NCBI RefSeq assembly: GCF_009931695.1
Contig: NZ_CP048000.1
Coordinates: forward strand, 5,288,501 to 5,352,500
DNA length: 64,000 nt
Direction: 5' to 3'
Source of the DNA: Anaerocolumna sedimenticola
GTDB lineage: Bacteria > Bacillota > Clostridia > Lachnospirales > Lachnospiraceae
A program made the position numbers and the translations under genes. The notes below the pieces were generated by a model. It was not told the origin of the DNA, searched no databases, and saw only the letters and a list, made by a program, of their open reading frames with translations. Of this stretch, positions 5,399-37,392 are shown piece by piece; positions within the stretch are counted from its first letter, which is position 1; each line of letters begins with the position of its first letter.

Positions 5399-5443
5399 TT
5401 ATTGACCCCTTGACATCAATACTGCCGTCTCCACGTGAAACCT
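5399..5443 (-). pseudogene. rlmD 3'-end fragment 1
   Basis: On the minus strand the frame reads HVETAVLMSRGQ then TAA. This matches the conserved C-terminal HVETV signature of RlmD/RumA-type 23S rRNA uracil methyltransferases. The fragment begins within about 2 bases of the CPBP stop codon, as if the gene had been inserted directly upstream. It is one of eight such tails in the window and lacks the common upstream arm of the others. Confidence 0.6.
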
Positions 5444-5444
5444 T

Positions 5445-6215
5445 TTACCCGAATATAATGTACATTATAAAACCGACTATAGTAATGATCCCATTAAGTA
5501 AGTTATGTGCAAACATTGGACCTAAAACACTTTTTGATTTAATAAACAGCCAACCAAAAAAGGTACCAAATATGAAGCAGGTTATTTGCTGCAAAAGATT
5601 AAAGTATGTTATTTTGAAAGGGTTCAAATTAAAATTTATATGGGCAAGCATAAAGATAAGGGTTGAAGCGGATATAGCAATAATTTGAGATTTTTGTTCC
5701 GATTTTAAAAATGTATTGAGTGAAAATAACATGACCGGAATAGTTAGTGACCTGAATAATAATTCTTCACTTGTACCAGTAAATAAAATTTCAAACAAAA
5801 AATACCCTAAAAAATTTTTAAATGTTAATGGATAAGTTAAGGCAGCTGACATAGATGTCATCTTGATTAATAAAATACTTCCACCTGTTTGAATCATAAT
5901 CCATAAAAAACAAAAAACTTGCACCATTTTTATGGAGTATCGAAAATTTTTTGTATTGAAACCGAAATCTTTTAATGGTATTTTTAATGCTATAGAGATA
6001 AATACTATTATAATAGTAGTAATTATTGCTTGTAATATATGATGAATTGTTAGGAGTAAAAAACAGTTGTCTGGATCAAAACCACTAAATTGATTAAATA
6101 ATTTTGTTGACATACTAAAACAGACAGAACTAATTACAGTTATTGTTATAAACAACATAGCGAACATCAAGAATATTTTTAAAAAATTAATGATATTACC
6201 AAAGATTTTTTTCAT
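5445..6215 (-). CDS. CPBP membrane metalloprotease, copy 2
   Basis: The 256-residue polytopic membrane protein has the CPBP motifs EELLFRSLTIPV, LAHINF and FAHNLLNGI. The second and third motifs carry the histidines that bind zinc in this family, so it looks active. A GAGGG ribosome site lies about 10 bases before the ATG. Its stop codon abuts rlmD 3'-end fragment 1. No bacteriocin gene lies nearby to support an immunity role, so the function stays open. Confidence 0.87.
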   Translation of the reverse strand: MKKIFGNIINFLKIFLMFAMLFITITVISSVCFSMSTKLFNQFSGFDPDNCFLLLTIHHILQAIITTIIIVFISIALKIPLKDFGFNTKNFRYSIKMVQVFCFLWIMIQTGGSILLIKMTSMSAALTYPLTFKNFLGYFLFEILFTGTSEELLFRSLTIPVMLFSLNTFLKSEQKSQIIAISASTLIFMLAHINFNLNPFKITYFNLLQQITCFIFGTFFGWLFIKSKSVLGPMFAHNLLNGIITIVGFIMYIIFG

Positions 6216-6591
6216 CTAAATTAACCCTCAATCATGATTTAAATCGGATGCAGAAGTAATGTTATAAAATAGCGAGAACATATTATTGGGATCAACTTTT
6301 TGGAATTGTCCCATTATGAAAATTGGGAATTTATCGGTTTTTTGTAGGATTTTTGCCTGACACAATACAGACGTTTTAATCTCTCTCTACGTCCCTGCTT
6401 AGCTAAGCAATTCCTATTCTTTTATTGCTGCCGTTCCTTCCACGGCTAGCTGTTTGTAACTTAGCCGGGCATACTACCGCCCGTACCCGAAATATATACA
6501 ATCAAAACATTGTTTATCATAAAAATCACCATGCCGACCGTTTTTATCAATTAAGCTAATCAATTTCAAATCAGGAACTAGCTATAAAAAG
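6216..6591. other. Intergenic region with a 14-base palindrome
   Basis: No gene is visible in these 376 bases. TGCTTAGCTAAGCA at 6396-6409 is a perfect palindrome, and the stretch at 6430-6490 is clearly more GC-rich than its surroundings. It could be a degenerate mobile-element end; it shows no HVET-coding frame. Confidence 0.35.
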
Positions 6592-7047
6592 TCAAGAGGA
6601 AACATCAAAATCCCAAGTGAGAAATACTTCATCAATATCGTTTGAGGGAATAGCTCCAGTTTTCTGATATAAGCCAACAGCAGATATATTGGAGCGATTA
6701 GTAGGAACAAACATTTTCATCATGGGTTTCGTAGTGCATAAGGATTTCAATTTCTCGACAAGAGCTGTTCCGATACCCCGCTTTCGATATTCATCAATCA
6801 CTGTAATATCATACAGAAACATCATGCTCTGCTCTCTATCTGGCCTTTGGAGTTCATATGCAATTAAATATCCTACAGTTTTTGAGGCATCAACGGCAAT
6901 GAGCAGATGATTAAACGGGTTTTCAAGGAAAGTTGTCATTGCAGTAGAAGTAGCTAATTCAATAGGTAATCCATCTGTGCATTTAATGGTCACCATTGCA
7001 TTAACAGCTAAATCCACAAGATAGGTGTTGCAGTGAATAATATCCAT
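6592..7047 (-). CDS. GNAT acetyltransferase, AAC(3)-I-like
   Basis: The 151-residue GNAT-fold protein has the acetyl-CoA site EYRKRGIGTALVEKLKSL and AVGLYQKTGA at motif B. The layout NHLLIAVDAS-VGYLIAYEL-MFLYDITVIDEYRKRGIG resembles the order of segments in AAC(3)-I gentamicin acetyltransferases, so an aminoglycoside substrate is possible. Many uncharacterised GNATs share this layout, so resistance is not established. It is transcribed alone, upstream of CPBP copy 2. Confidence 0.75.
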   Translation of the reverse strand: MDIIHCNTYLVDLAVNAMVTIKCTDGLPIELATSTAMTTFLENPFNHLLIAVDASKTVGYLIAYELQRPDREQSMMFLYDITVIDEYRKRGIGTALVEKLKSLCTTKPMMKMFVPTNRSNISAVGLYQKTGAIPSNDIDEVFLTWDFDVSS

Positions 7048-7118
7048 ATGTCACAGCCTTTCTGTTACACTTGTTATCATACATCCATCGTATAATACAA
7101 ATCTTCTGCAGTCATTAT

Positions 7119-7880
7119 TTATTTGTTAATATGAAAAGCGGTGAGAAACCCGATCAGGTACATAATAAAATTTGAACCATTATGTGCGATAACCAGCCAT
7201 AAAAGACTTTTTGTCTTAATGAAAATCATTCCCCACCATATTCCCAGAATGAAGTTAAAGGCCACCTGCAGATAGTCAATTGAAACCAGTCGAAACGGTA
7301 TGAATGTAAATCCAATATGCCCAATGGCGAATATCAAACCGGAAATGAGAACCGCATGGGGCAGTTCAAGCCTTCCTATACGGACGTTCCCATCCCAATA
7401 TTTCATCAATGGCAGAAGCACCAACGCACGGTATAATGGCTCTTCTCCCAAGCCGGGCATAGTACCCGCATAACTTAAAGCTATTATCATATATTCACTG
7501 TCCGGCGGATAATAGCTCATAATATACTGGGCAAAGCCGGGATATAAATGTAAAGATACTATATAAAAAACAACTACAATCCCCGTCCACAATCCAAGAA
7601 AGCAGCCTGTATATTTAATCCCCTGTGCGCTGCCCCCCCATTTAAAACCAAGCTCGGCGAAGGGCTTTCGCAGTAAAAGCTTTAATGTCAGAACTGCAAG
7701 AAGACCTTGGAATAATTGATGAAGTACGTTAATCATATATCTATCCCCATAAATTATCCGGCTTTGCAACCATAGGGCCGTTGCTGTAGCAATCCTAGGT
7801 ATAACAAGGGTTATCAGAAACAACAACAGAAACACCAGAATTTTCTCTATTATTCTTTTAGCATTTCTTTGCTTTCTCAT
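7119..7880 (-). CDS. CPBP membrane metalloprotease, copy 3
   Basis: The 253-residue membrane protein contains LGEEPLYRALVLLP, AIGHIGFTF and IAHNGSNFI, the three CPBP motifs. The first has Pro-Leu after the paired glutamates, a usual variant. GGGAGA precedes the ATG by 5 bases. Only 19 bases separate it from the upstream GNAT gene, so it probably belongs to the OsmC-GNAT-CPBP operon. Confidence 0.87.
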   Translation of the reverse strand: MRKQRNAKRIIEKILVFLLLFLITLVIPRIATATALWLQSRIIYGDRYMINVLHQLFQGLLAVLTLKLLLRKPFAELGFKWGGSAQGIKYTGCFLGLWTGIVVVFYIVSLHLYPGFAQYIMSYYPPDSEYMIIALSYAGTMPGLGEEPLYRALVLLPLMKYWDGNVRIGRLELPHAVLISGLIFAIGHIGFTFIPFRLVSIDYLQVAFNFILGIWWGMIFIKTKSLLWLVIAHNGSNFIMYLIGFLTAFHINK

Positions 7881-7899
7881 TTATCTCTCCCAAGTTATC

Positions 7900-8442
7900 T
7901 CACAGCAATTTTTCATATAGCCTAAACCACTTCAATCCGTAGTTCCCGAGTCCCAAGTCAACTGTATCGATATATTTAAAACCACATTTTTCATAAAGCT
8001 TTATAGCAGGTATATTTCCTTCGTAAACATCCAACCTGATTGACTTAGCTTTTGATTTAATACTATGTTCAGTAGAAAAGTTCATTAATGCTTTGCCTAC
8101 ACCACATTTCAGAAATCTTGGATGTACCGCAAATGTATGTACAACAAAAACATCTGAATAGTCAGTCTCAAATTCCCATTTCGCTTTATAATATGCAGGT
8201 TCAGGCTCATGGCTTAAAATAACAGAACCAATGATCTTCCCATTATGTTTTGCTACATAGAGATTACCCTGTTTTATTCCGTCAATTGCAATTTGCCGGA
8301 CAGGATAAACCCCCTTTATCCATCCAGGATAGTTTACTCCTCTTGCCAAATGATCATTTAAATCGTTATAAAGCATTTCTAATTCATCAATATCACTTGC
8401 TTTTCCTAAATCAAAAATTATCGGAGCATGCTGGCTTATCAT
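7900..8442 (-). CDS. GNAT family N-acetyltransferase
   Basis: The 180-residue protein has a GNAT core: VVHTFAVHPRFLKCGVGKALM is the acetyl-CoA-binding segment, and NIPAIKLYEKCGFKY is the family's C-terminal motif. The start codon overlaps the stop of the OsmC gene by ATGA, so translation is probably coupled. The substrate is unknown; small-molecule GNATs of this kind often act on amines or amino acids. Confidence 0.85.
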   Translation of the reverse strand: MISQHAPIIFDLGKASDIDELEMLYNDLNDHLARGVNYPGWIKGVYPVRQIAIDGIKQGNLYVAKHNGKIIGSVILSHEPEPAYYKAKWEFETDYSDVFVVHTFAVHPRFLKCGVGKALMNFSTEHSIKSKAKSIRLDVYEGNIPAIKLYEKCGFKYIDTVDLGLGNYGLKWFRLYEKLL

Positions 8443-8879
8443 GCAATGTATCCGCTTCTTTCTATATTATACTCATAGCTGATCTCAACATTATTTTTTA
8501 CCATATTCCATACTGGGCAGAAAGATTCTTCAGACAGCTTGATCGCTTTTTCAAAGTCTGCATCCTCTGCATCCTTTGAGACCAGATTGAATTCCAGATG
8601 AATTTTCTCGAAGTATGTAGGGTGCTGCTCGCGCCTATCTCCTTTTATATTGATTCTGAGACCGGAAACATCCTTTCTCATTTTTCGTAATAATACTGCA
8701 ATTGATGTGCCGCTGCAGGTCGCAAGGCTTATAAGGAACAGTTCCAGAGAAGTGTATCCCTCCCCGTCCCCTATGGGCGGATTATAATCAAGTATGATTT
8801 CAGGGTTGGATCTGGATACACCCTTGAATTTTACTTTCTCATTCATTAAGCTTGCAGTAACTATTAATTGTTCCGACAT
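8439..8879 (-). CDS. OsmC/Ohr family peroxide-reductase-like protein
   Basis: The 146-residue protein shows the OsmC pattern: TSLELFLISLATCSGTSIAV with Cys55 and ESFCPVWNMVKNN with Cys121, the two cysteines that reduce organic hydroperoxides in OsmC/Ohr. AGGAGG lies 7 bases before the ATG. It heads a likely operon with the GNAT (4-base overlap) and CPBP copy 3. The TetR gene lies 170 bases upstream on the same strand and might regulate it. Confidence 0.88.
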   Translation of the reverse strand: MSEQLIVTASLMNEKVKFKGVSRSNPEIILDYNPPIGDGEGYTSLELFLISLATCSGTSIAVLLRKMRKDVSGLRINIKGDRREQHPTYFEKIHLEFNLVSKDAEDADFEKAIKLSEESFCPVWNMVKNNVEISYEYNIERSGYIA

Positions 8880-9048
8880 AATTAAAACCTCCTGTTTTCA
8901 TTGATTTATATAATTTGATATTTCCACTTATGAATTTAATTCTTTTCTTTTGCTTCAGAATACCCTATCAATCCTTTACTTTTGCATACCAACAGTAAGA
9001 TATCACAGACAGAATAATGTGTAATGTTCTTAATGATATCGCTCCTTC

Positions 9049-9606
9049 TTATGGTTTGATTGCAGTATTAAGTATGATGTTGAGAGCTTCCTCTCTTTCT
9101 TTTGTATCTCGGATATTTATACCAGAATAACGTTTAAATTCCTCCATTTTCAACAGAATCACCTGCATAGCCGAGATCATTTGGAGTGCTATAACCTTTA
9201 TTTCGAGATCGCTCTTCGTCCCGCCATAGAGCTCTTTCAAAAGCGGCGTTATGAAGTAGCAAATACTCATATCACCATTCACGATCTCGTAGGAAAGTTG
9301 AACACGAAAGATTTCACTGTACTGTAGTGCAAGCTCCGCCGTTTGATAGAAAAAACCCTTCAATCTTTCGAATGGAGTTCCGGAACCCTCACTCGGAGAT
9401 AATCCTTCCGCCAGATTCGCCATTTGTCCGGCTATAACCTCATAGACAAGCTTATCCTTTGAATGAAAATGATAGCTAACCGTACCTATCCCTACACCAG
9501 CTTGCTGTGCAATTTTACGGACAGTGATGTCCTCAACAGGGCAACCCTCCGATAGTAATTCCCTTACTGCTGATATGATTTTTTCCCTTGCTTCACTGTA
9601 TGGCAT
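9049..9606 (-). CDS. TetR/AcrR family transcriptional regulator
   Basis: The 185-residue protein has an N-terminal TetR helix-turn-helix: VRKIAQQAGVGIGTVSYHF followed by SKDKLVYEVI. The C-terminal ligand domain is not recognisable. AAAGGAG precedes the ATG. A strong promoter overlapped by a perfect 11-base palindromic operator lies directly upstream, so the protein very likely represses itself. The ligand is unknown; OsmC and CPBP genes downstream are possible targets. Confidence 0.9.
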   Translation of the reverse strand: MPYSEAREKIISAVRELLSEGCPVEDITVRKIAQQAGVGIGTVSYHFHSKDKLVYEVIAGQMANLAEGLSPSEGSGTPFERLKGFFYQTAELALQYSEIFRVQLSYEIVNGDMSICYFITPLLKELYGGTKSDLEIKVIALQMISAMQVILLKMEEFKRYSGINIRDTKEREEALNIILNTAIKP

Positions 9607-9626
9607 CTTATTACTCCTTTACATTC

Positions 9627-9679
9627 ACTGAACATGTTTAGTACATGTTCAGTATAATACTGAGTAAATAGTATGTCAA
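9627..9679 (-). promoter_or_regulatory. Sigma-A promoter with TetR-type operator
   Basis: On the minus strand TTGACA (9674-9679) and TATACT (9651-9656) are separated by 17 bases. The perfect inverted repeat ACTGAACATGT-5-ACATGTTCAGT (9627-9653) begins at the -10 and covers the start region, the position expected for autorepression by the TetR protein. Confidence 0.85.
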
Positions 9680-9814
9680 GAGGGTTTGTAAAATAAGTTT
9701 TGCTTAATTGAAAGGCGAGATGCAACTTTTGTAACCCAATCGTCAACATGCATTTGCCGCCTTGGCTTCCTATGACGGAGTCCATTTGAACTATCGCCGT
9801 ATCCGGATTCTTGT

Positions 9815-9931
9815 CTATGAAATCGTAGTCGGGTTCTTATCCAATCAGCGGACGATTCCTTTAAAGGATAGACTTTCTTTTAGGTATTTCTGAAGGGTCA
9901 GTCTTTCTTCGTACGTAAAAAACTTTGACAT
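9815..9931 (-). pseudogene. IS30-type transposase N-terminal remnant
   Basis: A good ribosome site (GGAGAG) and ATG at 9931 open a frame beginning MSKFFTYEERLTLQKYLKES and continuing with LDKNPTTIS. This matches the N-terminal helix-turn-helix of IS30-family transposases. In-frame stops fall after FKGIVR and after TTIS, and no downstream catalytic domain is visible. It is a short, dead remnant. Confidence 0.7.
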
Positions 9932-10440
9932 AGTTACTCTCCTTTTTGACATTAACCCCTTCAGAATACATGGCAGTGAAAAGGTGTGCAAACAAAAAGA
10001 CTGGTTCATCACCAATCTTTTGTAAGCCAGGACGCAACTACCTGGTATCTATAAATTCTATTACTTTATAAAGTTCAATTCGAATCGATAGGGTTGCATC
10101 TCGATTTTCAATTAAGGTATCGTTTCGTATCCTTATATTTTTTATACATTTACGTCCATTGCTCAACCGCAGCATGTTAACCCCCCACTGGTACGCTTTG
10201 TCTGATGAAGAATATCAATCAGACGGTTCCGTTTCTGTTCAATGGCTTGAATTTCATTCTTCACTTTTCATGCTGTTTTTGAAAGATGATAGTTAAGATT
10301 CACGAATCCATCACATATTATTAGTGACGAATATGTAAATTCATTTAATTTCTATGTTTACTATACCACAAAATCCCAATAATTTCAAGTCTTGAGGTGT
10401 TCGCAATTAAGGAGTATTAATTATATGAGGTGATGTTTAT
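9932..10440. other. Gene-poor stretch, probable degraded sequence
   Basis: About 500 bases hold no convincing gene. A minus-strand frame around 10200-10270 (KNEIQAIEQKRNRL) looks like a coiled-coil remnant, but I cannot assign it. The GAGGTGAT ribosome site of the methyltransferase gene is at its right end. Confidence 0.4.
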
Positions 10441-11355
10441 ATGAAACAGAAAAGTATGACCGCTCTTGTTAGTGCTTTTTCAAGAGCATATCATTCTGAA
10501 AACAACGATATCAAAATATTCAATGATAGCGTTGCCAGGTTACTCCTATCCGAACAGGAATACAGTCAAATTGAAAAAAGCATGGCACAAGGCATTCAGT
10601 TTTTTAACCCCGGATTTAGCGGGAGCGACGTTGACGCCTTGAGATGGATTGTTGACAATCAATTGTCACCCTCGCCGCTGGGAAGATCGGCTTATGCCGA
10701 ACAAGCACTAAGAAATGCGGTTAATTTTGGAGCGAAACAATATCTGATCTTTGCAGCAGGATATGATAGCTTTGCTTACAGGCAGCCTGGATGGGCTTCC
10801 CAACTCCATATTTTTGAGCTTGATCATCCTCTTATGAGCATGGAAAAGCAAAAGCGCATAAACAGTATTTACGAAAAAAAGCCTGATAATTTAACTTACC
10901 TGCCTGTTGACCTGGCCCTTACAGCAATTGACGAGTACCTGTTTGACCACACTGAGTTTGATAGATCAAAGCTTTCATTTTGCAGTCTGCTTGGAATCTC
11001 GTATTATCTATCAAAAGAAAATTTCACAAACCTGATCAGAGGCATCTCCAATACGGTATGTACCGGAAGTACTATTGTATTCGATTATCCTGACCAGGAT
11101 ACTTATACCGGTAAAGCCGGGGAACGTGTAAAAAAGCAGGCAATGATGGCTGGAAACGCGGGAGAAGCGATGTTAGCAAGTTATTCGAATTTTGATATGG
11201 AAGCCTTGCTTTCGAATTGTGGCTTTTTGATTCATGAGCACCTGGAGCCCAAAGAGATTACCAAGCAATACTTTGCTGAATATAACCAAGCAAATCCACA
11301 ACATATTATGTCGGCATTTGATAATGTAAATTATTGTTTAGCCGTAAAAAAATAG
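10441..11355 (+). CDS. Class I SAM-dependent methyltransferase, LCM/PPM1 family
   Basis: The 304-residue protein matches the leucine carboxyl methyltransferase/TIGR00027-like family. It begins with a lid region, then shows AKQYLIFAAGYDSFAYR, the SAM-binding segment with G-Y-D-S, and FELDHPLMSMEKQKRI with the acidic residue that holds the ribose. CSLLGISYYLSKE follows, as in bacterial polyketide-type O-methyltransferases. GAGGTGAT precedes the ATG. The substrate is unknown. It stands alone on the plus strand and ends at a strong terminator. Confidence 0.88.
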   Translation: MKQKSMTALVSAFSRAYHSENNDIKIFNDSVARLLLSEQEYSQIEKSMAQGIQFFNPGFSGSDVDALRWIVDNQLSPSPLGRSAYAEQALRNAVNFGAKQYLIFAAGYDSFAYRQPGWASQLHIFELDHPLMSMEKQKRINSIYEKKPDNLTYLPVDLALTAIDEYLFDHTEFDRSKLSFCSLLGISYYLSKENFTNLIRGISNTVCTGSTIVFDYPDQDTYTGKAGERVKKQAMMAGNAGEAMLASYSNFDMEALLSNCGFLIHEHLEPKEITKQYFAEYNQANPQHIMSAFDNVNYCLAVKK

Positions 11356-11402
11356 CTGCCATATTCAAAATCTGCAATGTCATCTATAAGACAGGCAAAA
11401 AG

Positions 11403-11438
11403 TCGGGCTGAAAATTGCACTTTTTCAGCCCGATTTTT
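11403..11438 (+). terminator. Rho-independent terminator of the methyltransferase gene
   Basis: TCGGGCTGAAAA and TTTTCAGCCCGA form a perfect 12-base stem around a 7-base loop, followed by TTTTT. Confidence 0.88.
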
Positions 11439-11484
11439 GTCTTTATTTTACTCCAAAACCACTACATACAGTGGTTGACCTGCC

Positions 11485-11586
11485 TCATTTGCCCTTTAAA
11501 CCACTATTCGTCATCAGAATTATCGTTTCAACGTGCCTTGAACGTTCAAAAAAGATGCCGCTTGAGCCTGGTGGTGCCTTGGCGGC
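11485..11586 (-). pseudogene. rlmD 3'-end fragment 2 with common arm
   Basis: The minus-strand frame gives RSRHVETIILMTNSGLKGK then TGA, an RlmD-type C-terminus. Upstream it carries the arm shared by other copies: GCCAAGG, CAGGCT, then GGCATCTTTTTTGAACGTTC. It lies 27 bases beyond the stop of the lipoprotein gene. Confidence 0.6.
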
Positions 11587-11612
11587 AGTGTATCAATCAA
11601 ATGAGATGTGAG

Positions 11613-12245
11613 TCAGTATTCACTTGGAGTTAGCCAAATATATATGGTACTCTTATTGTTACCAGGTTCATATGCCGCTACATTGCCATTTTTATAAACC
11701 ACTTGACCTCCGTCATGCTTAAATCCATACTGTGTTTCATCTGCACCACCATCTAATAAATCACCAGTAAGTGACCATAATGAGTTTCCCATCTCTTCTC
11801 CACAAAAGAAAATAAATGTTGTCAATATAGCATCCATATATTTACTATCATCCGAATTTGAATCATAGTCAAATTTCCATGTGGACGTATCAATACCAAC
11901 TTTATTATCCTCTAAAACTAATGTCCAATCAGATTGACCAGCCTTTTCATAATCTTCTGCTGTAGATGGAGTTAAGCTTTTTCCGTATTTTGTTTCTAAG
12001 ATATTGTTTAAAATATCAATATTTTCAGCTAAAGTTTTTGATGATTTATAAACTAATTCACTGTCTGTATCAGTATCATTCTCTCTTTCCTCTAAATCAA
12101 TGGTTTCTATATTTTCTGCGATTGGTGTGATTTCGATTTCTGTATCTGACACACTTACATTATTATCCTTATTACATGCCAGTATGTTAAATGGCAATAC
12201 CATTAACAATACTACCATCAAACTTCTTCTTAAATATTTTTTCAT
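11613..12245 (-). CDS. Putative lipoprotein of unknown function
   Basis: The 210-residue product has a lipoprotein signal: KKYLRRSLM, a hydrophobic core, and lipobox ILAC with Cys24. An acidic, low-complexity linker follows (about residues 30-65). The rest (ETKYGKSLTPSTAEDY ... STIYIWLTPSEY) has no family I recognise. GGAGG lies 5 bases before the ATG. It is expected to be anchored on the outer face of the membrane. It is followed directly by rlmD fragment 2. Confidence 0.75.
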   Translation of the reverse strand: MKKYLRRSLMVVLLMVLPFNILACNKDNNVSVSDTEIEITPIAENIETIDLEERENDTDTDSELVYKSSKTLAENIDILNNILETKYGKSLTPSTAEDYEKAGQSDWTLVLEDNKVGIDTSTWKFDYDSNSDDSKYMDAILTTFIFFCGEEMGNSLWSLTGDLLDGGADETQYGFKHDGGQVVYKNGNVAAYEPGNNKSTIYIWLTPSEY

Positions 12246-12265
12246 ACAGCCTCCTTTCGTATCAC

Positions 12266-12458: not shown

Positions 12459-12556
12459 AATATAAAATTTCCTCCTAACTACAATGCAATTTGCTTTTTT
12501 TTGCTTTTATGATAAAATATTTCTATTCTATTGACAATATAAAATTATTATGGTTT

Positions 12557-12577: not shown

Positions 12578-12588
12578 TAGGAGAATAT

Positions 12589-29933: not shown

Positions 29934-29959
29934 GTTTACTCCTTATCTTCTCACGATAA

Positions 29960-30592
29960 TCAGGCTGGATCATTTTTTAAGCTTCCAAGTATCAAATCCA
30001 TTGATATATCATTGAAATCCTCTTCTAACAATGAAAAATAGCTTATAAAATTATCCCCTGTGGATGCCATAAGACAATAATATCCAGTCATTATGAATAC
30101 CAAACTAAAAGCGATCTTTCTCGGATTAATTCCTGGCTTTATGCTACCATCCGATACACCATCAGCAATCACACAAGCAGTCTCTTCAAATAACTGTTGA
30201 TTTAGTTTCATCAATTCTCCTTGGTAAAAACTATCCTGTAGAGCTTTTTTTTTCACTTGTCCCTGCCAGCTAATGATTTTCAACATTTGTGGGTTACTTT
30301 TACATAGTTGAGCTAATTGTTTACTTGCCGAACATAGTTTTAAAAAACCAGTTTTTTCGGACTGATATCCACGACTGATATGCGAAAGCAATTTATCATA
30401 AATATTATGGACAACAGCAAAATACAACTCTTCTTTATTTTTAAAATATCTGTACAGTGTACGCCTAGTGATCCCCGCTTCATTTGTAATAATATCAATG
30501 GAAGCTGAATCAAACCCCATTCTACCAAAAACATGTTCTGCAGCCGTGATAAGGGTTTCTCTATATCTTATCTCATTTTCCTTCCGTGACAT
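29960..30592 (-). CDS. TetR/AcrR family transcriptional regulator
   Basis: The 210-residue protein has a clear TetR DNA-binding domain (FDSASIDIITNEAGITRRTL, YRYFKNKEELYFAVV) and a helical ligand domain. GGAGG precedes the ATG. Its promoter carries a palindrome overlapping the -10, so it probably represses the TetR-membrane-FeS operon. Confidence 0.92.
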   Translation of the reverse strand: MSRKENEIRYRETLITAAEHVFGRMGFDSASIDIITNEAGITRRTLYRYFKNKEELYFAVVHNIYDKLLSHISRGYQSEKTGFLKLCSASKQLAQLCKSNPQMLKIISWQGQVKKKALQDSFYQGELMKLNQQLFEETACVIADGVSDGSIKPGINPRKIAFSLVFIMTGYYCLMASTGDNFISYFSLLEEDFNDISMDLILGSLKNDPA

Positions 30593-30619
30593 ATTAGTAT
30601 TACCTCCATAACTAAATTG

Positions 30620-30662
30620 AAAAGTATAACGTTAGTATACTTTTCGATTATCAGTTTGTCAA
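30620..30662 (-). promoter_or_regulatory. Sigma-A promoter with palindromic TetR operator
   Basis: On the minus strand TTGACA (30657-30662) and TATACT (30634-30639) are 17 bases apart. AAAAGTATA-7-TATACTTTT (30620-30644) overlaps the -10. The design is the same as at the 9.6 kb TetR gene. Confidence 0.85.
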
Positions 30663-30764
30663 TACCAAAACGAATAAATATTTTCAGAGCAATGTTTTCA
30701 AAGGATCAAATTTTCAAATAAATCCTTATATTCATTTGTACAGAAATTTCACTGACTTCAAAAA

Positions 30765-30807
30765 GTAAGAACTTTGTAATCTCAGTTGAAAATTACAAAG
30801 TTCTTAC
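30765..30807. repeat. Perfect 15-base inverted repeat
   Basis: GTAAGAACTTTGTAA and TTACAAAGTTCTTAC pair around a 13-base loop. It is in a gene-free stretch (30663-31023) upstream of the TetR promoter. It could be a terminator for the minus-strand gene now lost, or a mobile-element end. Confidence 0.6.
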
Positions 30808-31023
30808 CTTTCATATGGGACTTATGTTACATCCCCTTTTGATATTAAACATGAACCTTAGTCGTACACGTCTATAATGAGGATCAACAATATACAAAGC
30901 ATTTGGAATCATAATTTTTTTTATAAAGCGTCTCCATTCTTACCATAGTTATCATGTTTATACATACCCGGTACTAGTGTACAAATGATATTCCACATAT
31001 TTATAACATCTTGTGGTCAAATC

Positions 31024-31125
31024 CTACTTTTTGCCCTCCGAACCACATTTCGTCATCATTATTATCGTTTCCACGTGCCTTGAACGGTCAAAAAAGATGC
31101 TGCTTTAGCCTGATGGGACCTTGGC
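31024..31125 (-). pseudogene. rlmD 3'-end fragment 7 with common arm
   Basis: The minus strand reads SIFFDRSRHVETIIMMTK, then CGSEGKK and TAG. Upstream are CATCTTTTTTGACCGTTCAA, CAGGCTAAAGC and GCCAAGG. It resembles fragment 2 over about 120 bases, including the sequence past the stop codon (CCACATTTCGTCATCATTAT on plus). Confidence 0.63.
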
Positions 31126-31127
31126 TT

Positions 31128-31289
31128 TTGTGTTCCGTTGGATTTATCCCATGTTTCCTTAATTTTAAATATCCTTTGCGATGAGCTTAATGGCAGCCAT
31201 AGCTCCATATAGCCTGCATCCGGATTTTTATCATAATATATCTCGGCAGCGAAATCGTCGCAAGTCAGGACTTCCACTAAAACATACAA
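31128..31289 (-). pseudogene. Fragment of a GyrI-like/effector-binding protein
   Basis: About 54 codons (VEVLTCDDFAAEIYYDKNP, GYMELWLPL) resemble the C-terminal strand-rich end of GyrI-like effector-binding domains. The frame then runs into the arm of rlmD fragment 7. The N-terminal part is missing, and a hairpin sits immediately upstream. Confidence 0.45.
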
Positions 31290-31324
31290 AATTCCTTACC
31301 CCCAATCACGGAAAGTAAGGAATT
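31290..31324. terminator. Hairpin upstream of the GyrI-like fragment
   Basis: AATTCCTTAC and GTAAGGAATT form a perfect 10-base stem around a 15-base loop. Confidence 0.5.
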
Positions 31325-31356
31325 CTATCTCAATTTTCTTATAGTACAACTGCATT

Positions 31357-31547
31357 TCATATTAATTTCACGATTATTACAGCAATAATATAACATAAAC
31401 ATATTACCATAATAATCCATGAAATTCCATAAATATTAATAAACAATTCTGTATAATAAGTAGCAAGCTGGATTAATCCAATGTCCCTCTGTTTTCGTTT
31501 TTCCTTCGTAAAATATATTAAATAACTATCTCTTCACTTAAATTCAT
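31357..31547 (-). pseudogene. Small membrane protein with frameshift
   Basis: GAGGTGC and ATG at 31547 open MNLSEEIVI and stop. One base later the frame continues as YFTKEKRKQRDIGLIQLATY, then ISWIIMVICLCYIIAVIIVK and a stop. The joined product would be about 63 residues with one membrane helix. The family is unknown. The stretch 31548-31787 shows no gene. Confidence 0.4.
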
Positions 31548-31787
31548 AAAGCACCTCGTGTTTAAAAGTTTATAATAAATGCGAAGTGCCACTTTTTAAA
31601 TAATTTTAAGTATTTAGGTTAACGACATTGCCTGCTAAGCAGGTATGTCCCCAGACAGTTTTAGCTTCTAGCATAAAACACAACAATAATGTAGTTCGTT
31701 TACGATAGCACTTTTCGCTGTGGTTGACCCAAGACTGGCCGATGAATGCATTCTTTTCATATTGCATACCCCTACTTTATTAATCGC

Positions 31788-33140
31788 TTATAAGCTCTCA
31801 AAACCATTATTTCTAATAACATTCGAATACCAGTTAGCACTTGCCTTTGGTGTTCGCTTCAAAGTATTATAGTCCACGTGAATAATTCCAAATCGGATGG
31901 ATAGCCCTTCTGCCCATTCGAAATTATCCCACAGTGACCAAACAAAATATCCCTTTATCGGAATACCTTCTCCTAATGCTTTATGTAACATCTTCAGATA
32001 ATTTCTAAGATAAATTAATCGAATCGGATCGGTTACAGTACCATCGTCATCTACCCAGTCATTTGAAGCACAACCATTTTCCGTAATGATAATGTTCTTT
32101 GGATGATAGGTATCGTTAATACTCTTTAATAAATCATAAAAACATTTCGGTTCATATTCCCAACCATTCTGAGTGACAGGTTTCCCCGTATTTACACCTG
32201 AAGCATATAACGGCCACCTGCCTCCGTCTTTTACATAGGTGCCATTGTAATTATTCAATCCAAAGAAATCAATATCCTGGCATATTAGTTCCATGTCCCC
32301 CGGTCTTATGTCAGGAAGGATTACCCCCTGTTTAACCAAATAATCAAAGTATTCCTGCGGATATGTACCCTTAAATATCGGATCACAAAACAGGGTATTC
32401 ATCTCAGCATTCTGTCTGTTAGCTGCTGCAATATCTGCTGCTGAATTTGGATCTTCCGGATATATCATACTCATGTTAACCTTAATACCGATGTTTCCAG
32501 ACAAGCCGCTTTCACGAAATGCCTTAACCGCAGTTCCATGAGCCAGATTTACATGATGAGCAACCGTTAGTGCAGAAGAATAATCCTGATAACCGGGTGC
32601 ATGTACCCCAAACCCGTGTCCCAGAAAAGAAATAACCCATGGTTCCAATACAGTAATCCAGTTATCTACCAAGTCTCCTAATTCCCGGTACATGGTTCTG
32701 GCATAATTATCAAACCAGCCTATAATCTCCCGATTCATCCATCCGCCACGTTCCTGCAGCTTCTGCGGAAGATCCCAGTGGTAAAGTACTACATAGGATT
32801 TGATACCATTTTCACGAAGGCAAGTCAGTACATTTCTATAAAATTCAATTCCTGCCTGATTTACTATACCGATTCCATCCGGTATCACTCTTGGCCAGCT
32901 TATAGAAAACAGGAAATTCGGATATCCCAACTTTTTCATCATCCTGATATCATCCTCGTATGTATGATAAAAGTCACAGGCCACATCACCGGTTGTTCCA
33001 TCCTTGATGTGGCCCGGAGTATGGCAGAAACGATCCCATATGCTTTCGCCTTTTCCGCCTTCGTTCCATCCACCTTCTATCTGATAAGAACCAGCTGCTA
33101 CACCCCAAGTAAAATTGCTTGGAAATTCATACTTTTTCAT
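31788..33140 (-). CDS. Glycoside hydrolase family 1 beta-glucosidase-like
   Basis: The 450-residue protein is a full-length GH1 TIM barrel: FTWGVAAGSYQIEGG at the start, HWDLPQ, nucleophile Glu354 in IITENGC, and NFEWAEG near the end. The acid/base motif is TVLEPW instead of TxNEP: Glu166 is kept, but the preceding Asn that contacts the sugar 2-OH is Leu165. No signal peptide is seen, so it acts in the cytoplasm, possibly on (non-phosphorylated) disaccharides. ATG at 33140 has GGGGGATG upstream. It follows the deoC remnant and shares its operator region. Confidence 0.9.
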   Translation of the reverse strand: MKKYEFPSNFTWGVAAGSYQIEGGWNEGGKGESIWDRFCHTPGHIKDGTTGDVACDFYHTYEDDIRMMKKLGYPNFLFSISWPRVIPDGIGIVNQAGIEFYRNVLTCLRENGIKSYVVLYHWDLPQKLQERGGWMNREIIGWFDNYARTMYRELGDLVDNWITVLEPWVISFLGHGFGVHAPGYQDYSSALTVAHHVNLAHGTAVKAFRESGLSGNIGIKVNMSMIYPEDPNSAADIAAANRQNAEMNTLFCDPIFKGTYPQEYFDYLVKQGVILPDIRPGDMELICQDIDFFGLNNYNGTYVKDGGRWPLYASGVNTGKPVTQNGWEYEPKCFYDLLKSINDTYHPKNIIITENGCASNDWVDDDGTVTDPIRLIYLRNYLKMLHKALGEGIPIKGYFVWSLWDNFEWAEGLSIRFGIIHVDYNTLKRTPKASANWYSNVIRNNGFESL

Positions 33141-33192
33141 AGCTTTGTCATCCCCCATTCCCGTTTCAATATCTTTCATATACGTTTGTTGA

Positions 33193-33499
33193 CTACTTCA
33201 CATATAATACCGTAGGAACAGATTTATAGCCTACACCCATTGTATCGATTCCCATATCAATTAGTTGCAGAAAATGTTCTCTGGTTCGGATGCAGCCGCT
33301 GTCTTTAACCTGGCACTTATCACCTACTTCTTCCATCCTCAATTTTATAATTTCAGGTGTCGCACCGCCTAATCTTACCCCAGCCTTTGTTAAATCAATA
33401 ATCTCCTGTTCCGTGAAATCTGGTTTTTATTACAGAATAATCAATGTACTTTGCTAATTTGCTTACTGTCATTTCACTGGATTTTTTACTTGGCTTCAT
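33193..33499 (-). pseudogene. deoC: deoC (deoxyribose-phosphate aldolase-like), internally deleted
   Basis: AAGGAGA and ATG at 33499 open MTVSKLAKYIDYSVIKT. After a frameshift the next frame reads FTEQEIIDLTKAGVRLG and then jumps to PEIIKLRMEEVGDKCQVK and GYKSVPTVLYVK with a stop. About half of the family's length, including the active-site lysine region, is missing. It lies 14 bases before the GH1 frame and under the same operator. Confidence 0.7.
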
Positions 33500-33546
33500 A
33501 TTTTACTTTCTCCTTTATTCTGTCTTACAATTTGTAAAGGTATTGT

Positions 33547-33569
33547 TTTAAATGTATGATACATTTAAA
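33547..33569. promoter_or_regulatory. 23-base perfect palindromic operator
   Basis: TTTAAATGTATGATACATTTAAA is perfectly palindromic around G33558. Its core TGTATNATACA resembles GntR-family sites. It lies between the divergent deoC/GH1 and PfkB remnants. Confidence 0.7.
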
Positions 33570-33664
33570 TATATAGCACTTTCCACATGTTTTGTCAATA
33601 TTATTTATTTAAATGTATTATTAGTTCCTGCTTTTTTATGAAATAAGTTATATAATCACATCAT

Positions 33665-33683
33665 TAAATGTATCATACAATTA
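33665..33683. promoter_or_regulatory. Second copy of the TGTATNATACA operator
   Basis: TAAATGTATCATACAATTA shares the core of the 33547 operator with one mismatch in the flanks. It is 23 bases ahead of the PfkB remnant start. Another half-site, AAATGTATTA, is at 33611. Confidence 0.6.
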
Positions 33684-33705
33684 TAACATCATGGAGGTCA
33701 CTTTT

Positions 33706-34018
33706 ATGGGAGCTGTCGGTTTTCAACCATTGACCCGACATTAATTGGTCCATGATACTGGGTATGAATCACATCTGGGAGGAATTTCTTGAAAAGGTCG
33801 CACCTAATATTACTGTATCCGCAAAGACTGTATTTTCAGATTTAGCTAATCCCGAAAAGCGCACAAAAAAGGATATCCTGAAATGTCTTTCTCTTACAAA
33901 AGATTTTATGAAAGCAGGTTTTCATGTTATACTAAGTCTGAATTTAAAAGAAGCTTGTGAAATCAGTGAAGCGATGGGTGTAACGATAACTGATTACCGT
34001 ACAGCGGATACTTATTAG
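33706..34018 (+). pseudogene. PfkB family sugar kinase remnant
   Basis: GGAGG and ATG at 33706 start MGAVGFQPLT, typical of PfkB kinase N-termini, then stop. From 33752 a second frame reads NHIWEEFLEKVAPN, AKTVFSDLANPEKRTKKD and LSLNLKEACEISEAMGV, which corresponds to the middle of the kinase. The ATP-binding C-terminal part is absent. With deoC and GH1 it suggests a lost sugar-catabolic cluster. Confidence 0.6.
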
Positions 34019-34034
34019 CACATTTTACGTCTCG

Positions 34035-34246
34035 TTACTTCTTCTTCCGCAAACAAATGATACTCTGAAGGACAATAAAGAAGCAGAGCATTGCCATGCG
34101 TGTGATCTGCGGCTGCCACGGATCCTGGCTGCCTATAACGGGTAACGACCAGTAATAACATTCCGCTTGTCTAATACGTCGAAGAAAGTACCAAAGATAT
34201 TACCTACACCGCCGGTAAGCAATTCCAAGCTTATGAGAACCTCCAT
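34035..34246 (-). pseudogene. C-terminal remnant of a membrane protein
   Basis: Two minus-strand frames overlap: ELLTGGVGNIFGTFFDVL ends at a TAG, and VIGSQDPWQPQITRMAML, CFFIVLQSIICLRKKK continues to a stop at 34035. A hydrophobic helix with a KKK tail is clear. The frames join by a single indel. The family is not identified. Nothing is seen in 34247-34510 apart from TATAAT at 34455. Confidence 0.4.
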
Positions 34247-34510
34247 AATGTACACTTTTCACACTAAAGAAAAATTTGTGACTGTGGCCACAGTCACATT
34301 ACTTGCCAGTTGCGGAAAGCCGGAAATTGTACTTTTAAATATAGAATCGAATTAATCTAAAATTATTAAATAGGGTATCAAACCGAACAACTATTAATAC
34401 TAAAATCACACATATTCGGTCATGAAATGTAAGGTAAGAAACTGTTAAATTTAGTATAATTTCAGTAGCTTAAAGATTAGGCTATACAAAAAATTAAAGG
34501 AGCGATACAA

Positions 34511-35011
34511 ATGAGTTTGGATTTCAGAATCGAAAATAAGAATGCTTTTCGTGTGGTGGGCATTTTAACACATACCACAACCGAAAATGATGCCTGCATG
34601 ACAACGGTTCCCGCGTTATGGAGCGAAGTCATTAACAAAGGTAAGAGTACCGAGATTATGGCATTGATGAATCAGCCTCCGTTCGGTATAATGGGTGTGA
34701 ATGTTTATAATACTGACCCAGCCAACCCGAAAAAATTTGACTACTATATTGCAAGTTCTACGGACAGGCCCGTACCTGACGGTATGGTGGAATATACGAT
34801 TCCAGCGGCTACATGGGCGGTTTTCCCTTGCAAACGCACTGAAACAGCGAGTGTCGAGGTTCGTATCGTAACAGAGTGGCAGCCAACCTCCGGCTATGAG
34901 CTGCTTAATTCCGGCTATGATACGGGAGAGATGAAATCAGGAGCCCCGGATTTGGAAGTCTACAACGATAAGGATAATGCCGAGGTATGGGCAGCAGTAA
35001 GAAAAAAATAA
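34511..35011 (+). CDS. GyrI-like effector-binding domain protein
   Basis: The 166-residue protein is a stand-alone effector-binding domain (FRIENKNAFRVVGILTHTT ... EYTIPAATWAVFPC ... VRIVTEWQPTSGYE). AAAGGAG precedes the ATG by 8 bases. It is closely similar to the C-terminal half of the AraC regulator that starts 21 bases downstream, so the pair arose by duplication. It may bind the same ligand, or modulate the regulator. Confidence 0.88.
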   Translation: MSLDFRIENKNAFRVVGILTHTTTENDACMTTVPALWSEVINKGKSTEIMALMNQPPFGIMGVNVYNTDPANPKKFDYYIASSTDRPVPDGMVEYTIPAATWAVFPCKRTETASVEVRIVTEWQPTSGYELLNSGYDTGEMKSGAPDLEVYNDKDNAEVWAAVRKK

Positions 35012-35032
35012 TGTAGAAAAGGTGATTGTATA

Positions 35033-35875
35033 ATGAATTGGTTGGATGGCTTTAATCAGGTAATTGAATATATTGAAAAAAACTTAGAAGGCGAGATTGA
35101 TTACGAGAAGATTACCGCTGTGTTCGGGTATTCCGTTTATCATGTTCAGCGGCTTTTTGCTATGATAGCCGGAGTACCCCTTTCCGAATACATCCGTAAC
35201 AGGCGTCTTTCTAAGGCGGCGGTGGAGCTTCAAGGCGGCGAAGATAAGGTAATTGATGTTGCAGTCAAGTATGGCTATAGCTCGCCAAACTCTTTTAACC
35301 GGGCATTTAAGGCTTTGCACGGAGTATCTCCCAGCGATGTTAAAAAGGATGGCGTTTCGATTAAAGCATATCCTCCCCTTTTCTTTGAACTCACCGTTAA
35401 AGGAGCACAGGCGATGGACTATCGCATTGAGAAGAAAAACTCTTTTCGCATTGCCGGCGTCAAACTGCATACTACTATGGAAAATGGCGAGTGCTACCGC
35501 AGCACCCCGGAGTTTTGGCACGACTTGATGAAAGATGGCGGGCAGAACGATATTATGGCTCTCATGAATGAGGAACCTGCCGGACTTTTAGGCGTGAGCA
35601 ACTATTGTATAGATTTTAGCACCAGCGAATTCGACTACTATATTGCCTGCGCTTCGAATAAGCCGGTGCCAGATGGAATGAGCGAATTTACCGTTCCTGC
35701 ATCAACCTGGGCAATTTTCACTTGCACGGAAAAAGAAGCAGACGCGGTGCAAAAGCTGGAACAGCGTATCGTGATGGAATGGCTCCCCACAAGCGGCTAT
35801 CAATTTGCATACGCCCCGGACATCGAACTGTATTCCGAGGAAGTATGGGAAGTATGGATACCGGTCACAAAATAA
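35033..35875 (+). CDS. AraC family regulator with GyrI-like effector domain
   Basis: The N-terminal third is an AraC-type double helix-turn-helix (YSVYHVQRLFAMIAGVPLSE, DVAVKYGYSSPNSFNRAFKA, HGVSPSDVKK). The C-terminal half is an effector-binding domain (YRIEKKNSFRIAGVKLHTT ... IVMEWLPTSGYQF), as in Rob/BmrR-like drug sensors. It is the second gene of a GyrI-AraC-radical SAM plus-strand operon. AAAAGGTGAT precedes the ATG. Confidence 0.92.
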   Translation: MNWLDGFNQVIEYIEKNLEGEIDYEKITAVFGYSVYHVQRLFAMIAGVPLSEYIRNRRLSKAAVELQGGEDKVIDVAVKYGYSSPNSFNRAFKALHGVSPSDVKKDGVSIKAYPPLFFELTVKGAQAMDYRIEKKNSFRIAGVKLHTTMENGECYRSTPEFWHDLMKDGGQNDIMALMNEEPAGLLGVSNYCIDFSTSEFDYYIACASNKPVPDGMSEFTVPASTWAIFTCTEKEADAVQKLEQRIVMEWLPTSGYQFAYAPDIELYSEEVWEVWIPVTK

Positions 35876-35912
35876 GGTCTTTTTATATTCGCGCGAAAGT
35901 AGGAATAAAGTA

Positions 35913-36779
35913 ATGGCAATCTATAACGAAATAACTTGTACAGTCGCGTGTAATCGGCTAAAGCGGAAAATTCCTTTCTCGTGGGATTTGAATATCTATC
36001 GTGGTTGCGAACATGGATGCAAATACTGTTACGCCATGTATTCGCACCAGTATTTAGGCTCCCAAAGGTATTTTGAAGATATTAATGTGAAGACGAATAT
36101 TGTAGAGCTTTTGGAAAAACAATTAAGTAGTCCTAAATGGAATCGTGAAGTTGTAAACATAGGCGGGGTGACGGACAGTTATCAGCCTGCTGAAGCCAAG
36201 TATAAATTGATGCCAGACATTCTCCGGCTCATGATAAAGTATAAAACGCCTTGCATTATCTCGACGAAATCGGATCTCGTACTGCGGGATTATGATTTGA
36301 TTGCCGAGCTTTCGCAAATTACCTATGTAAACGTCGCGGCAACCATCACTTGTATGGATGAAGGCATAAGAGGAAAAATTGAACCCGGCGGCGTGGATTC
36401 CCTGAAAAGATTTGCCATGCTAAAAGAGTTTTCCAAAACAAACGCATCGACAGGTTTGCATTTCATGCCTATCATACCTTACCTGACCGATACGCAGGAA
36501 AATATTGACGCGCTATACAGCAATGCCAAAGACTGCAACGTCAGCTATGTCCTTCCCGGTGTACGGTATCTTCGCGGCAAAACACGAGCGACCTTTTTTG
36601 AATTTATCAAACAGGATTTTCCGGGGCTTTATGAACTATTACAAGCATTATATAAAACGGGTGGCACTGGTGCGGACTATAAAAATGAGCTTTACAAAAT
36701 GGTAAACGAGTTAAAAGAAAAGTACAAGCTTTCAAGCAGTTATTCAAAACCAATGAAAGAGAAAATGCACAGACAATAA
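35913..36779 (+). CDS. Radical SAM protein, spore-photolyase-like (SPL) family
   Basis: The 288-residue protein has the radical SAM cluster motif GCEHGCKYCY (Cys32, Cys36, Cys39), a spacing shared by spore photoproduct lyase and Rv2578c-like proteins. VNIGGVTDSYQPAE and CIISTKSDLVLRDYDLI match the same family. ATG at 35913 is taken because upstream sequence belongs to the AraC gene. It lies 37 bases after the AraC stop. The substrate is unknown; the AraC/GyrI partners hint at a stress response. Confidence 0.88.
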   Translation: MAIYNEITCTVACNRLKRKIPFSWDLNIYRGCEHGCKYCYAMYSHQYLGSQRYFEDINVKTNIVELLEKQLSSPKWNREVVNIGGVTDSYQPAEAKYKLMPDILRLMIKYKTPCIISTKSDLVLRDYDLIAELSQITYVNVAATITCMDEGIRGKIEPGGVDSLKRFAMLKEFSKTNASTGLHFMPIIPYLTDTQENIDALYSNAKDCNVSYVLPGVRYLRGKTRATFFEFIKQDFPGLYELLQALYKTGGTGADYKNELYKMVNELKEKYKLSSSYSKPMKEKMHRQ

Positions 36780-36992
36780 AAGTTATGCAAATTGATATTC
36801 TTTTTGCTGTTAGTAAATGCACAAATTAACATAGTCTTCATGGGCTTTTGGGACGAAAGGTATACTAAGCAAAATATGGCTCTCTGTTGGTAAGTCCGGG
36901 CAGCCTAACCGTCATAGCGGCACCGGTTACCGTTCCCCGCCTCTCTCCGTTCATCAACCATTAACCCGCAAACACGATGCGGGCTGAGGGCG
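36780..36992. other. Gene-free, GC-rich insert
   Basis: Bases 36880-36985 are much richer in GC than their neighbours and contain CCCGC/GCGGG at 36964-36981 as a small hairpin. There is no coding frame. Origin unknown; structural RNA or a foreign remnant are both possible. Confidence 0.35.
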
Positions 36993-37181
36993 TTGCTTGA
37001 TGTCTTTGAAAACATATTACTTTTACGTATACTCGGACAATATCCTGTCTTCTACGAAACTTTGGCAACAATATGCTCTTGGATTACAACGTTTAAATTT
37101 ATTATGCTTTACATTTGGTTGTTGTCTATTGCAATACAAACTGTTGTATTTGGAGTAAACTCCATTAGGAGATATCTCTGA
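36993..37181 (+). pseudogene. Remnant of a paralogue of the 29.4 kb membrane protein
   Basis: The frame reads LDVFENILLLRILGQYP, TLATICSWITTFKFIMLYI and ends VNSIRRYL. It aligns with the last 60 residues of the 29370-29933 protein (LLDIGENIMLLFICMHYP, SVVTITKFVVLW). The N-terminal two thirds are missing and the GC-rich insert lies directly upstream. Confidence 0.6.
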
Positions 37182-37317
37182 ATCGGAATATAATCTATTT
37201 AATATTTCATAGGAGCGGACCAAATCTCGTTATTTGAATTACTTCGCTTCTATTTTACTATAATGCCAAGTACTTCCAGTCAAGTGCTCCTGCTTTCAAT
37301 ATCTATATAAATAATCG

Positions 37318-37392
37318 TCATGATTTCTTACTTAGTAAGCAAACCGTTTCCACATGGCTCGAGCGGTCATTATTGATGTCTGGGTTAAGGGG
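37318..37392 (-). pseudogene. rlmD 3'-end fragment 8
   Basis: The minus strand reads NDRSSHVETVCLLSKKS then TGA. The upstream arm ACATCAATAATGACCGCTCG corresponds to the common CATCTTTTTTGACCGTTCAA. It is followed (minus sense, upstream) by GTTGATATGTTCCCC, the VDMFP core. It forms the left edge of the resistance island. Confidence 0.68.

Follow-up and report, generated by a model that had tools for sequence, protein, structure and literature searches.

Why should the 3' end of a single housekeeping gene recur eight times within a small part of a clostridial chromosome, with unrelated genes between each copy and the next? This question is raised by a 64,000-nucleotide stretch of the Anaerocolumna sedimenticola genome, hereafter the window (genome 5288501-5352500, in a single-contig genome of 5.5 Mb), in which an initial annotation had described eight dispersed ends of rlmD, a gene of the RlmD/RumA family of rRNA methyltransferases. 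We consider it probable (roughly 0.78) that the window is a tandem array of elements that large serine recombinases inserted one after another, in a site-specific manner, at the rlmD 3' end. Successive insertion into rlmD, with older ends pushed outward, had already been suggested for this locus, and the suggestion is supported by the position of the intact rlmD gene, the divergence of sequences at one CA dinucleotide and the placement of 50 of 51 sites downstream of rlmD. To judge from sequence, the tail end of rlmD looks like a docking point for serial foreign cassettes, both here and in many relatives.

All eight RlmD-type C-termini were confirmed on the minus strand, each consisting of HVE followed by 8 to 14 residues and a stop codon. 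Each site is a junction at which a left half and a right half are joined at CA; the right half encodes a replacement RlmD C-terminus, as expected of segments said to match the C-terminal codons of rlmD. The eight sites are as follows.

Copy 1, 5399-5437, minus strand: CA core and RlmD-type tail HVETAVLMSRGQ; recognisable left arm absent.
Copy 2, 11485-11587 (CA to stop 11485-11535), minus strand: main-type left arm, CA core and tail HVETIILMTNSGLKGK.
Copy 3, 16485-16572 (CA to stop 16485-16520), minus strand: main-type left arm, partly worn, and core.
Copy 4, 20778-20874 (CA to stop 20778-20822), minus strand: main-type left arm, core and tail HVETVILLQRSEAL.
Copy 5, 22280-22342 (CA to stop 22280-22318), minus strand: native-like (attB-like) left half VDMFPGT, core and tail HVETVCLLGRKA.
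Copy 6, 28468-28558 (CA to stop 28468-28506), minus strand: main-type left arm, core and tail HVETVVRINRVN.
Copy 7, 31024-31129 (CA to stop 31024-31077), minus strand: main-type left arm, core and tail HVETIIMMTKCGSEGKK.
Copy 8, 37318-37420 (CA to stop 37318-37356), minus strand: second arm kind (GACATCAAT...CTCGAGC), core and tail HVETVCLLSKKS.

The main-type left arm is present in five of the eight copies (2, 3, 4, 6 and 7), in line with the upstream arm that most copies had been said to share. Copies 2 and 7 are similar over about 100 nt, the tail of copy 3 is poor (HVEICCFLSKY), a terminator-like hairpin follows the tail of copy 4, and the second arm kind of copy 8 recurs in other genomes. 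Short tandem repeats with GTTGATATGTTCCC, like the rlmD codons for VDMFP, were observed before copy 8 at window 37370-37440. Copy 5 has the native form ascribed to it, a likeness to the native rlmD end that is limited to 44 nt, and it alone is native-like; instead of being rlmD fragments, the copies are mostly element-borne sites that combine a left arm with a cassette-borne RlmD tail. The intact rlmD gene, which had been sought beyond the window on the minus strand, was indeed found there (479 codons, genome 5385060-5386496, minus strand like the array, 32.6 kb past the edge). In 151 kb of sequence surrounding the window, GGCAYGTGGARAC with up to two mismatches gave 13 matches on the rlmD strand (the eight copies, rlmD and four non-sites) and two on the opposite strand. 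A weaker ninth site (nhmmer E 1.8e-8) is positioned at genome 5278832, 9.7 kb past the left edge of the window, and as intact rlmD stands at one end and this site at the other, the whole array spans about 106 kb. Another RumA-family gene of the same genome (G000; 2739175-2740314) is followed, 61-73 kb downstream, by a second array, which comprises five sites (locus L053, 2801.8-2813.5 kb).

Alignment of 149 distinct main-type sites revealed a left arm of about 50 bp, composed of CCGCCAAGG, a TACCAG or CTAG-like block, CGACATCWTTWTT, a variable hexamer and TCAAGG, which is followed by CA, YGTKGARRC and the RlmD-type tail. One left arm pairs with various right halves, and one right half with various left arms. 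Because pairs of sites at least 99% identical diverge immediately past GGCA, and because CA are the sole bases common to all arm kinds ahead of the variable Y, CA is likely the crossover point; the same dinucleotide has been proposed as the one recognised for ICESluvan (PMC4735348). The tail behaves like coding sequence, since stops cluster at codons 9-18 and third codon positions vary most there: past the searched motif, the HVE frame has a stop in codons 9-18 in 122 of the 149 sites (70 and 73 in the other frames) and in codons 5-8 in 4 of them (113 and 9). The left arm does not behave in this way, and its third codon positions, the least variable of all, are evidence against a coding function. 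An RNA, hairpin or attC-like fold of the arm was also considered, and was rejected on the mutual information over the 149 distinct arms, in which pairs were weak (the best reached a corrected value of 0.17) and no covarying helix emerged. The arm as mainly a phage attP was likewise rejected, as the pattern occurs in two stretches among 2.9 million viral contigs and a 76-nt query from copy 7 matched nothing in phage records.

Across nine genomes of the genus, rlmD has a mean identity of 77-79% up to CA, followed by 66, 45, 34 and 30% in successive bins past it; between G012 and G014, identity is 0.93-0.98 over -150 to -20 and 0.22-0.35 from +13 onward. In other genomes, all rlmD matches (21 rows and 29 rows) extend to the end of the family model, and the gene therefore retains its C-terminus. 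No clean flank-to-flank empty site was found in the genus, because the genes beyond rlmD are not syntenic there, and the divergence at CA was therefore used in place of that comparison.

With regard to linkage, rlmD-family genes were located in 16 genomes of a 391-genome set of the class and in 16 others reached through loci. Among 103 sites, from which 14 of G496 (rlmD genes on other contigs) and four of G494 (the same as G387) had been left out, 51 have rlmD within 350 kb, a limit chosen after the distances had been seen (the longest being 338 kb), and 50 of these lie downstream on the rlmD strand and one upstream. A 79-bp site profile applied to five regions chosen by rlmD alone (G008, G009, G010, G012 and G014) gave eight matches on the rlmD strand, falling in two of the five regions, versus none on the other strand; with three regions fetched for known sites included, the counts are 23 and 0. 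The excess of sites on the rlmD strand is above chance. In 26 regions, most of them fetched for known sites and four of them (G484, G488a, G496a and G496b) without rlmD and oriented by their sites, nhmmer at E <=0.01 found 87 sites on the chosen strand and none on the opposite one. The depth of the array, for which the initial annotation offered no parallel, has a counterpart in Desulfosporosinus lacus (G483), where rlmD and eight sites occupy 33 kb, with no prophage.

The exact arm pattern occurs in at least 114 stretches of the genome collection, mostly from Bacillota among the matches listed, which also include a Fusobacteriaceae metagenome-assembled genome (MAG) and a Calditrichales record. 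With up to two mismatches, the arm was found in 31 of the 391 genomes (a reversed-pattern control gave 0 in all rows), the window genome having the most sites (8) and Tissierella praeacuta (G237) the next most (7). The right end of copy 2 resembles an Enterococcus faecalis record, in which a site of the same family with both halves present (locus L014, ~8001-8126) was observed with a VOC-family gene on one side and a cluster for aminoglycoside/streptothricin resistance on the other.

How might such an array arise? We propose that an element in circular form would be inserted into rlmD by a large serine recombinase, the crossover falling at the CA within the HVE codons. The right half-site of the element would supply a new RlmD C-terminus, leaving rlmD whole and regenerating the docking site, while its left half-site and the old rlmD tail would land on the far side of the element. 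Because the right half encodes RlmD residues in both partners, a single crossover at CA would yield one site of each kind, rlmD-left with the new tail and arm with the old tail; the dock would thereby be remade, rlmD kept intact and the orientation fixed. The next element would again enter at rlmD and displace the older ones outward, so that units would be stacked in a single orientation with the newest nearest rlmD. Several recombinase families may act on the same CA, namely single integrases, three-gene sets and a 415-aa protein termed RecX here; RecX would be tied to the conserved 50-bp left arm, and the integrases of published type would have the attachment (att) site in their own gene end.

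Between copies 8 and 1 there are seven units, 1.5 to 6.3 kb long, whose cargo is unrelated, as the initial annotation had it. Whole recombinase genes are absent from all seven, and one contains a RecX remnant. The units and the features between copy 8 and the window edge are listed below.

5438-11535: unit between copies 1 and 2, with two CPBP (Rce1-like) genes, two GNAT genes, OsmC, TetR and a leucine carboxyl methyltransferase.
11536-16520: unit between copies 2 and 3, with a Pfam-unmatched open reading frame (ORF), LysR, a SWIM zinc finger, LytR-CpsA-Psr and CPBP.
16521-20822: unit between copies 3 and 4, with the RecX remnant, several Pfam-unmatched ORFs and Hypoth_Ymh.
20156-20644, minus strand: RecX-type serine recombinase remnant of 162 aa, 178 bp past the copy 4 core.
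20823-22318: unit between copies 4 and 5, the smallest, with a single CPBP gene.
22319-28506: unit between copies 5 and 6, with DUF218, a HAD hydrolase, LysR in two ORFs, a Cache-domain protein and a Pfam-unmatched ORF.
28507-31077: unit between copies 6 and 7, with a 4Fe-4S protein, a Pfam-unmatched ORF and TetR.
31078-37356: unit between copies 7 and 8, with glycosyl hydrolase family 1, Cass2/GyrI-like, AraC-Cass2 and radical SAM genes.
37901-43475, minus strand: accessory genes between copy 8 and the recombinases (CAT family, GrpB, nitroreductase, DinB, ABC protein, MFS).
43904-47464, minus strand: three adjacent serine recombinase genes (526, 139 and 519 aa).
47465-64000: part of a siphophage-type prophage between the recombinases and rlmD, with a LysM/GH18 protein and tail genes.

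The accessory block between copy 8 and the recombinases measures 6.5 kb. The insert adjoining rlmD is the siphophage-type prophage with its three serine recombinase genes, the capsid, portal and terminase genes being located outside the window; it is not a recognisable integrative and conjugative element (ICE). Several side observations concern these genes. The LysR-type regulator at window 24043-24932 is broken into two ORFs, and two neighbouring genes at 34511-35875 carry the Cass2 domain, which is named after integron cassettes. The LytR-CpsA-Psr gene (window 14020-15192) is 97% identical to G007 120150-121454, the rlmD regions of the two species sharing 83%, and a left-arm-like CGCCAAGGGGGTA stands beside this gene in the window. 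The gap between prophage and rlmD (locus L010, 3720-10309) holds an AbiJ-type protein, an AlwI-type restriction enzyme and two D12-class adenine methyltransferases.

RecX has Resolvase, Recombinase and Zn ribbon domains and forms one fully supported clade in a tree of 25 chosen serine recombinases. Relatives of at least 53% identity occur in eight of the 391 genomes, two of them as fragments, and seven of these eight are among the 31 arm genomes (Fisher p 7.6e-8), a co-occurrence obtained with a query taken beside an arm site, its own genome counted and the best four candidates per genome scored. In 7 of 16 places, RecX is preceded at 164-180 bp by a core with RlmD tail, and in two more by a degenerate core; three RecX loci yielded no usable start. 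RecX is immediately behind rlmD in G230, G466 and G489, and a fused remnant takes that place in G483. In the window, the first 151 residues of the remnant are 91% identical to RecX of Sedimentibacter hydroxybenzoicus, and the right end of copy 4 together with the remnant is 88.4% identical to that species over 655 nt. As RecX is only a remnant in the window strain, its old array may now be fixed; the three-gene set of the prophage might still be working. All recombinases found beside cores are of the serine type, in surveys that included no search aimed at IntI.

Neighbouring sites in the 26 regions delimit 63 units, of which 53 are no longer than 10 kb. A serine-recombinase ORF was detected in three of these 53 (window copies 3-4, G483 and G489; one full length) and in 5 of the 10 longer ones, by a model that found the RecX genes, had one of its three rows translated a base off and may miss weak recombinases. 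The cargo of units in other loci, 101 of 107 proteins after six from the duplicate locus L169 were left out, includes WYL regulators (5), ParE toxins (3), pairs of GNAT, NUDIX, aldo-keto reductase, glyoxalase, methyltransferase and other proteins, and defence genes found once each, among them AbiE, MkoC and RhuM-type.

Units at least 99% identical in DNA end at the core and then differ. Five records, namely Globicatella sulfidifaciens, a Butyrivibrio MAG contig (3.6 kb, which could be misbinned), Aedoeadaptatus coli, Peptoniphilus obesi and G425, share a resistance-bearing unit end, 3.4 to 7.7 kb long and at least 99% identical; it is terminated by the core in all five, and the sequence past the core differs in several. 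A further unit, U (3172 nt, 99.6% identical in G425 and Aedoeadaptatus coli), carries rRNA-adenine-dimethylase, APH-like, deaminase and MBL-fold genes and no recombinase, and its left arm is of the copy 8 kind. Unit U begins at CA in both genomes and its identity stops inside the next shared core, and it adjoins rlmD in G425 and stands behind the resistance unit in Aedoeadaptatus coli. In addition, a unit start in the second array of the window genome is 95.9% identical over 1921 nt to a Desulfosporosinus lacus unit. Since most small units in many genomes are free of recombinases and at least one is intact at different places in two genomes, they look like cassettes and not merely like worn-down ICEs; the initial description of a decaying array thus gives part of the picture.

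A resident RecX or three-gene set would have mobilised the recombinase-free units in trans; alternatively, the units would have been brought by a neighbouring prophage or ICE and stranded upon its excision. In integrons, one fixed dock is remade at each insertion, the newest unit is nearest, each unit has one recombination site, the orientation is single, many cargo units are recombinase-free, and a tyrosine recombinase, IntI, acts on an attC hairpin. The rlmD array resembles this layout in its proposed remade dock and newest-nearest order, and in having one site per unit, one orientation and many recombinase-free units. It differs in its serine recombinase, in the attC-like fold that was not found in the arms, and in its units, which are multigenic, with genes in either orientation and presumably their own promoters. 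A cassette-capture system of integron layout, with RecX inserting and removing recombinase-free units in trans, is conceivable, and we put it forward tentatively, at less than even odds. The attB and the cassette site would have an identical right half and differ in the left half, rlmD codons versus the 50-bp arm; rlmD would play the part of attI, as a permanent dock, and the arm site that of attC, as the site belonging to each unit. Both would be acted on by RecX, which often adjoins rlmD or a core, possibly with no need for a separate directionality factor.

A different origin of the small units, which we also hold to be possible at rather less than an even chance, is plain accretion and decay, in which whole ICEs or prophages stacked at rlmD lost their bodies and recombinases and left immobile remnants between att sites, resembling cis-mobilizable elements (CIMEs). 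RecX remnants just past cores (copy 4, Desulfosporosinus lacus and others) and a 173-bp empty unit in the second array fit this view. The three-gene sets of G461 and G425 are followed, at 52 bp, by a degenerate core and tail and then by the resistance unit; this arrangement is counted in favour of decay, and also has the look of a cassette placed behind an element. ICE/CIME accretion has been published (PMC5704250), and an ICE that imported a unit and then left would give an identical picture, which makes the two views only partly separable. Decay does not readily account for unit U, whole, recombinase-free and differently placed in two genomes, nor for the 50 of 53 small units that have no recombinase ORF and still retain both end sites; units and unit ends 93-99% identical across distant taxa call for recent movement.

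Homologous recombination between arms, or segmental duplication of rlmD ends, could in principle have spread the copies without a site-specific recombinase, and the similarity of copies 2 and 7 and the rlmD-like end of copy 5 point in that direction. We nevertheless judge it very improbable, as the cargo between copies is unrelated, the likeness to rlmD is limited to 27-44 nt around the core, the breakpoints fall at a single dinucleotide and serine recombinases lie within or beside the arrays. That arm and tail are a conserved, non-mobile feature (a gene end, terminator or regulatory RNA) that merely resembles an att site is scarcely credible, for all its conservation over ~50 bp with constant spacing and the hairpin after some tails, given that similarity between loci ends at the core in many pairs, the flanking genes vary, the arm has no supported helix and the linkage to rlmD has a single orientation.

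Several results weigh against repeated recombinase-mediated insertion at rlmD. Of the 103 sites, 47 have no rlmD on their contig and five have it beyond 350 kb, a limit set, as noted, after the fact. In-frame stops in the left arms are scarce in the HVE frame (18 of 149 versus 50 and 52 in the other frames), a shortage that we put down to the fixed motif, and terminator-like hairpins follow 29 of 213 cores (24 of 639 random windows). Among the 16 RecX places examined, those of G387, G237, G036 and G010 have no recognisable core, and G230, with RecX at rlmD, has no arm site by pattern. Around homologues of the 526-aa recombinase, strong main-type arms follow in one of the 30 regions with close homologues and in three of the 10 with more distant ones, and RlmD-type tails in those 40 regions number 12 on the recombinase strand and 10 on the other, four of these 10 being rlmD genes. 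The three-gene set of the window is thus unsupported as owner of the main arm, and, main arms being rare and tails no commoner, its link to the sites rests on a few arms of the copy 8 kind (copy 8, G007, three regions and unit U). In addition, the movement of units is inferred from DNA comparisons alone.

Compared with known systems, the staphylococcal cassette chromosome (SCC) at rlmH is the closest working likeness. SCC and the related Enterococcus cassette chromosome (CcrAB, CcrC) use large serine recombinases, target the 3' end of a gene for an rRNA methyltransferase and form composite islands with several att sites, recombinase-free pseudo-elements and mixed cargo (PMC6222049; PMC10581047); an intact target gene, a remade site and tandem composites were also found here. 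The rlmD arrays differ in their target, an RlmD/RumA-family gene and not rlmH, in the crossover at CA inside the HVE codons (the centre published for SCC is GA), in the att sequence, in the many small units and in their spread through much of Bacillota, and presumably in their recombinases, which are large serine recombinases by Pfam. That rumA/rlmD is an ICE target, as had been stated, is borne out for both ICEs and prophages by published work (PMC4701971; PMC4735348; PMC4288039; PMC12785378). The single-integrase elements ICESluvan, phi-m46.1, CTn5 in 630-derm and phi-Er670 use the same gene with a CAYGTGGA core, and CA is invariant across the arms and tails examined here. They are single large elements, with the core in the end of their own integrase gene (PMC4701971), and their insertion is described as disrupting or changing rumA. 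Here, a core within the integrase gene end was found in G008, G425 and G285 and not in the window units or RecX units; no integrase gene ends in the main arm, and RecX lies at the opposite (right) end of its unit. CIMEs and tandem accretion in the ICESt1/ICESt3 family likewise give stacked recombinase-free units between att sites (PMC5704250). CIMEs keep both att sites and have neither recombinase nor transfer genes, and the small units agree with this as regards the recombinase (no such ORF in 50 of 53). Here, one arm family spans unrelated cargo and many genera, the arrays are much deeper and the target is another. The rumA/rlmD target with this core and the accretion of decayed elements are thus known; in the open-access literature, with subscription papers and preprints outside the scope, we recognised no description of the conserved arm, of recombinase-free rlmD arrays or of RecX, a weak indication of novelty.

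Serial docking at rlmD would explain the pile-up of accessory genes, including defence, toxin-antitoxin, enzyme, transporter and some resistance genes, behind one housekeeping gene in many Clostridia and their relatives. The site offers a sequence signature for finding and delimiting arrays that are often taken for scattered gene content. If units move in trans, the arrays would represent a cassette platform for gene exchange among Gram-positive anaerobes, and would provide new serine recombinases and sites with which to study how site identity determines direction.

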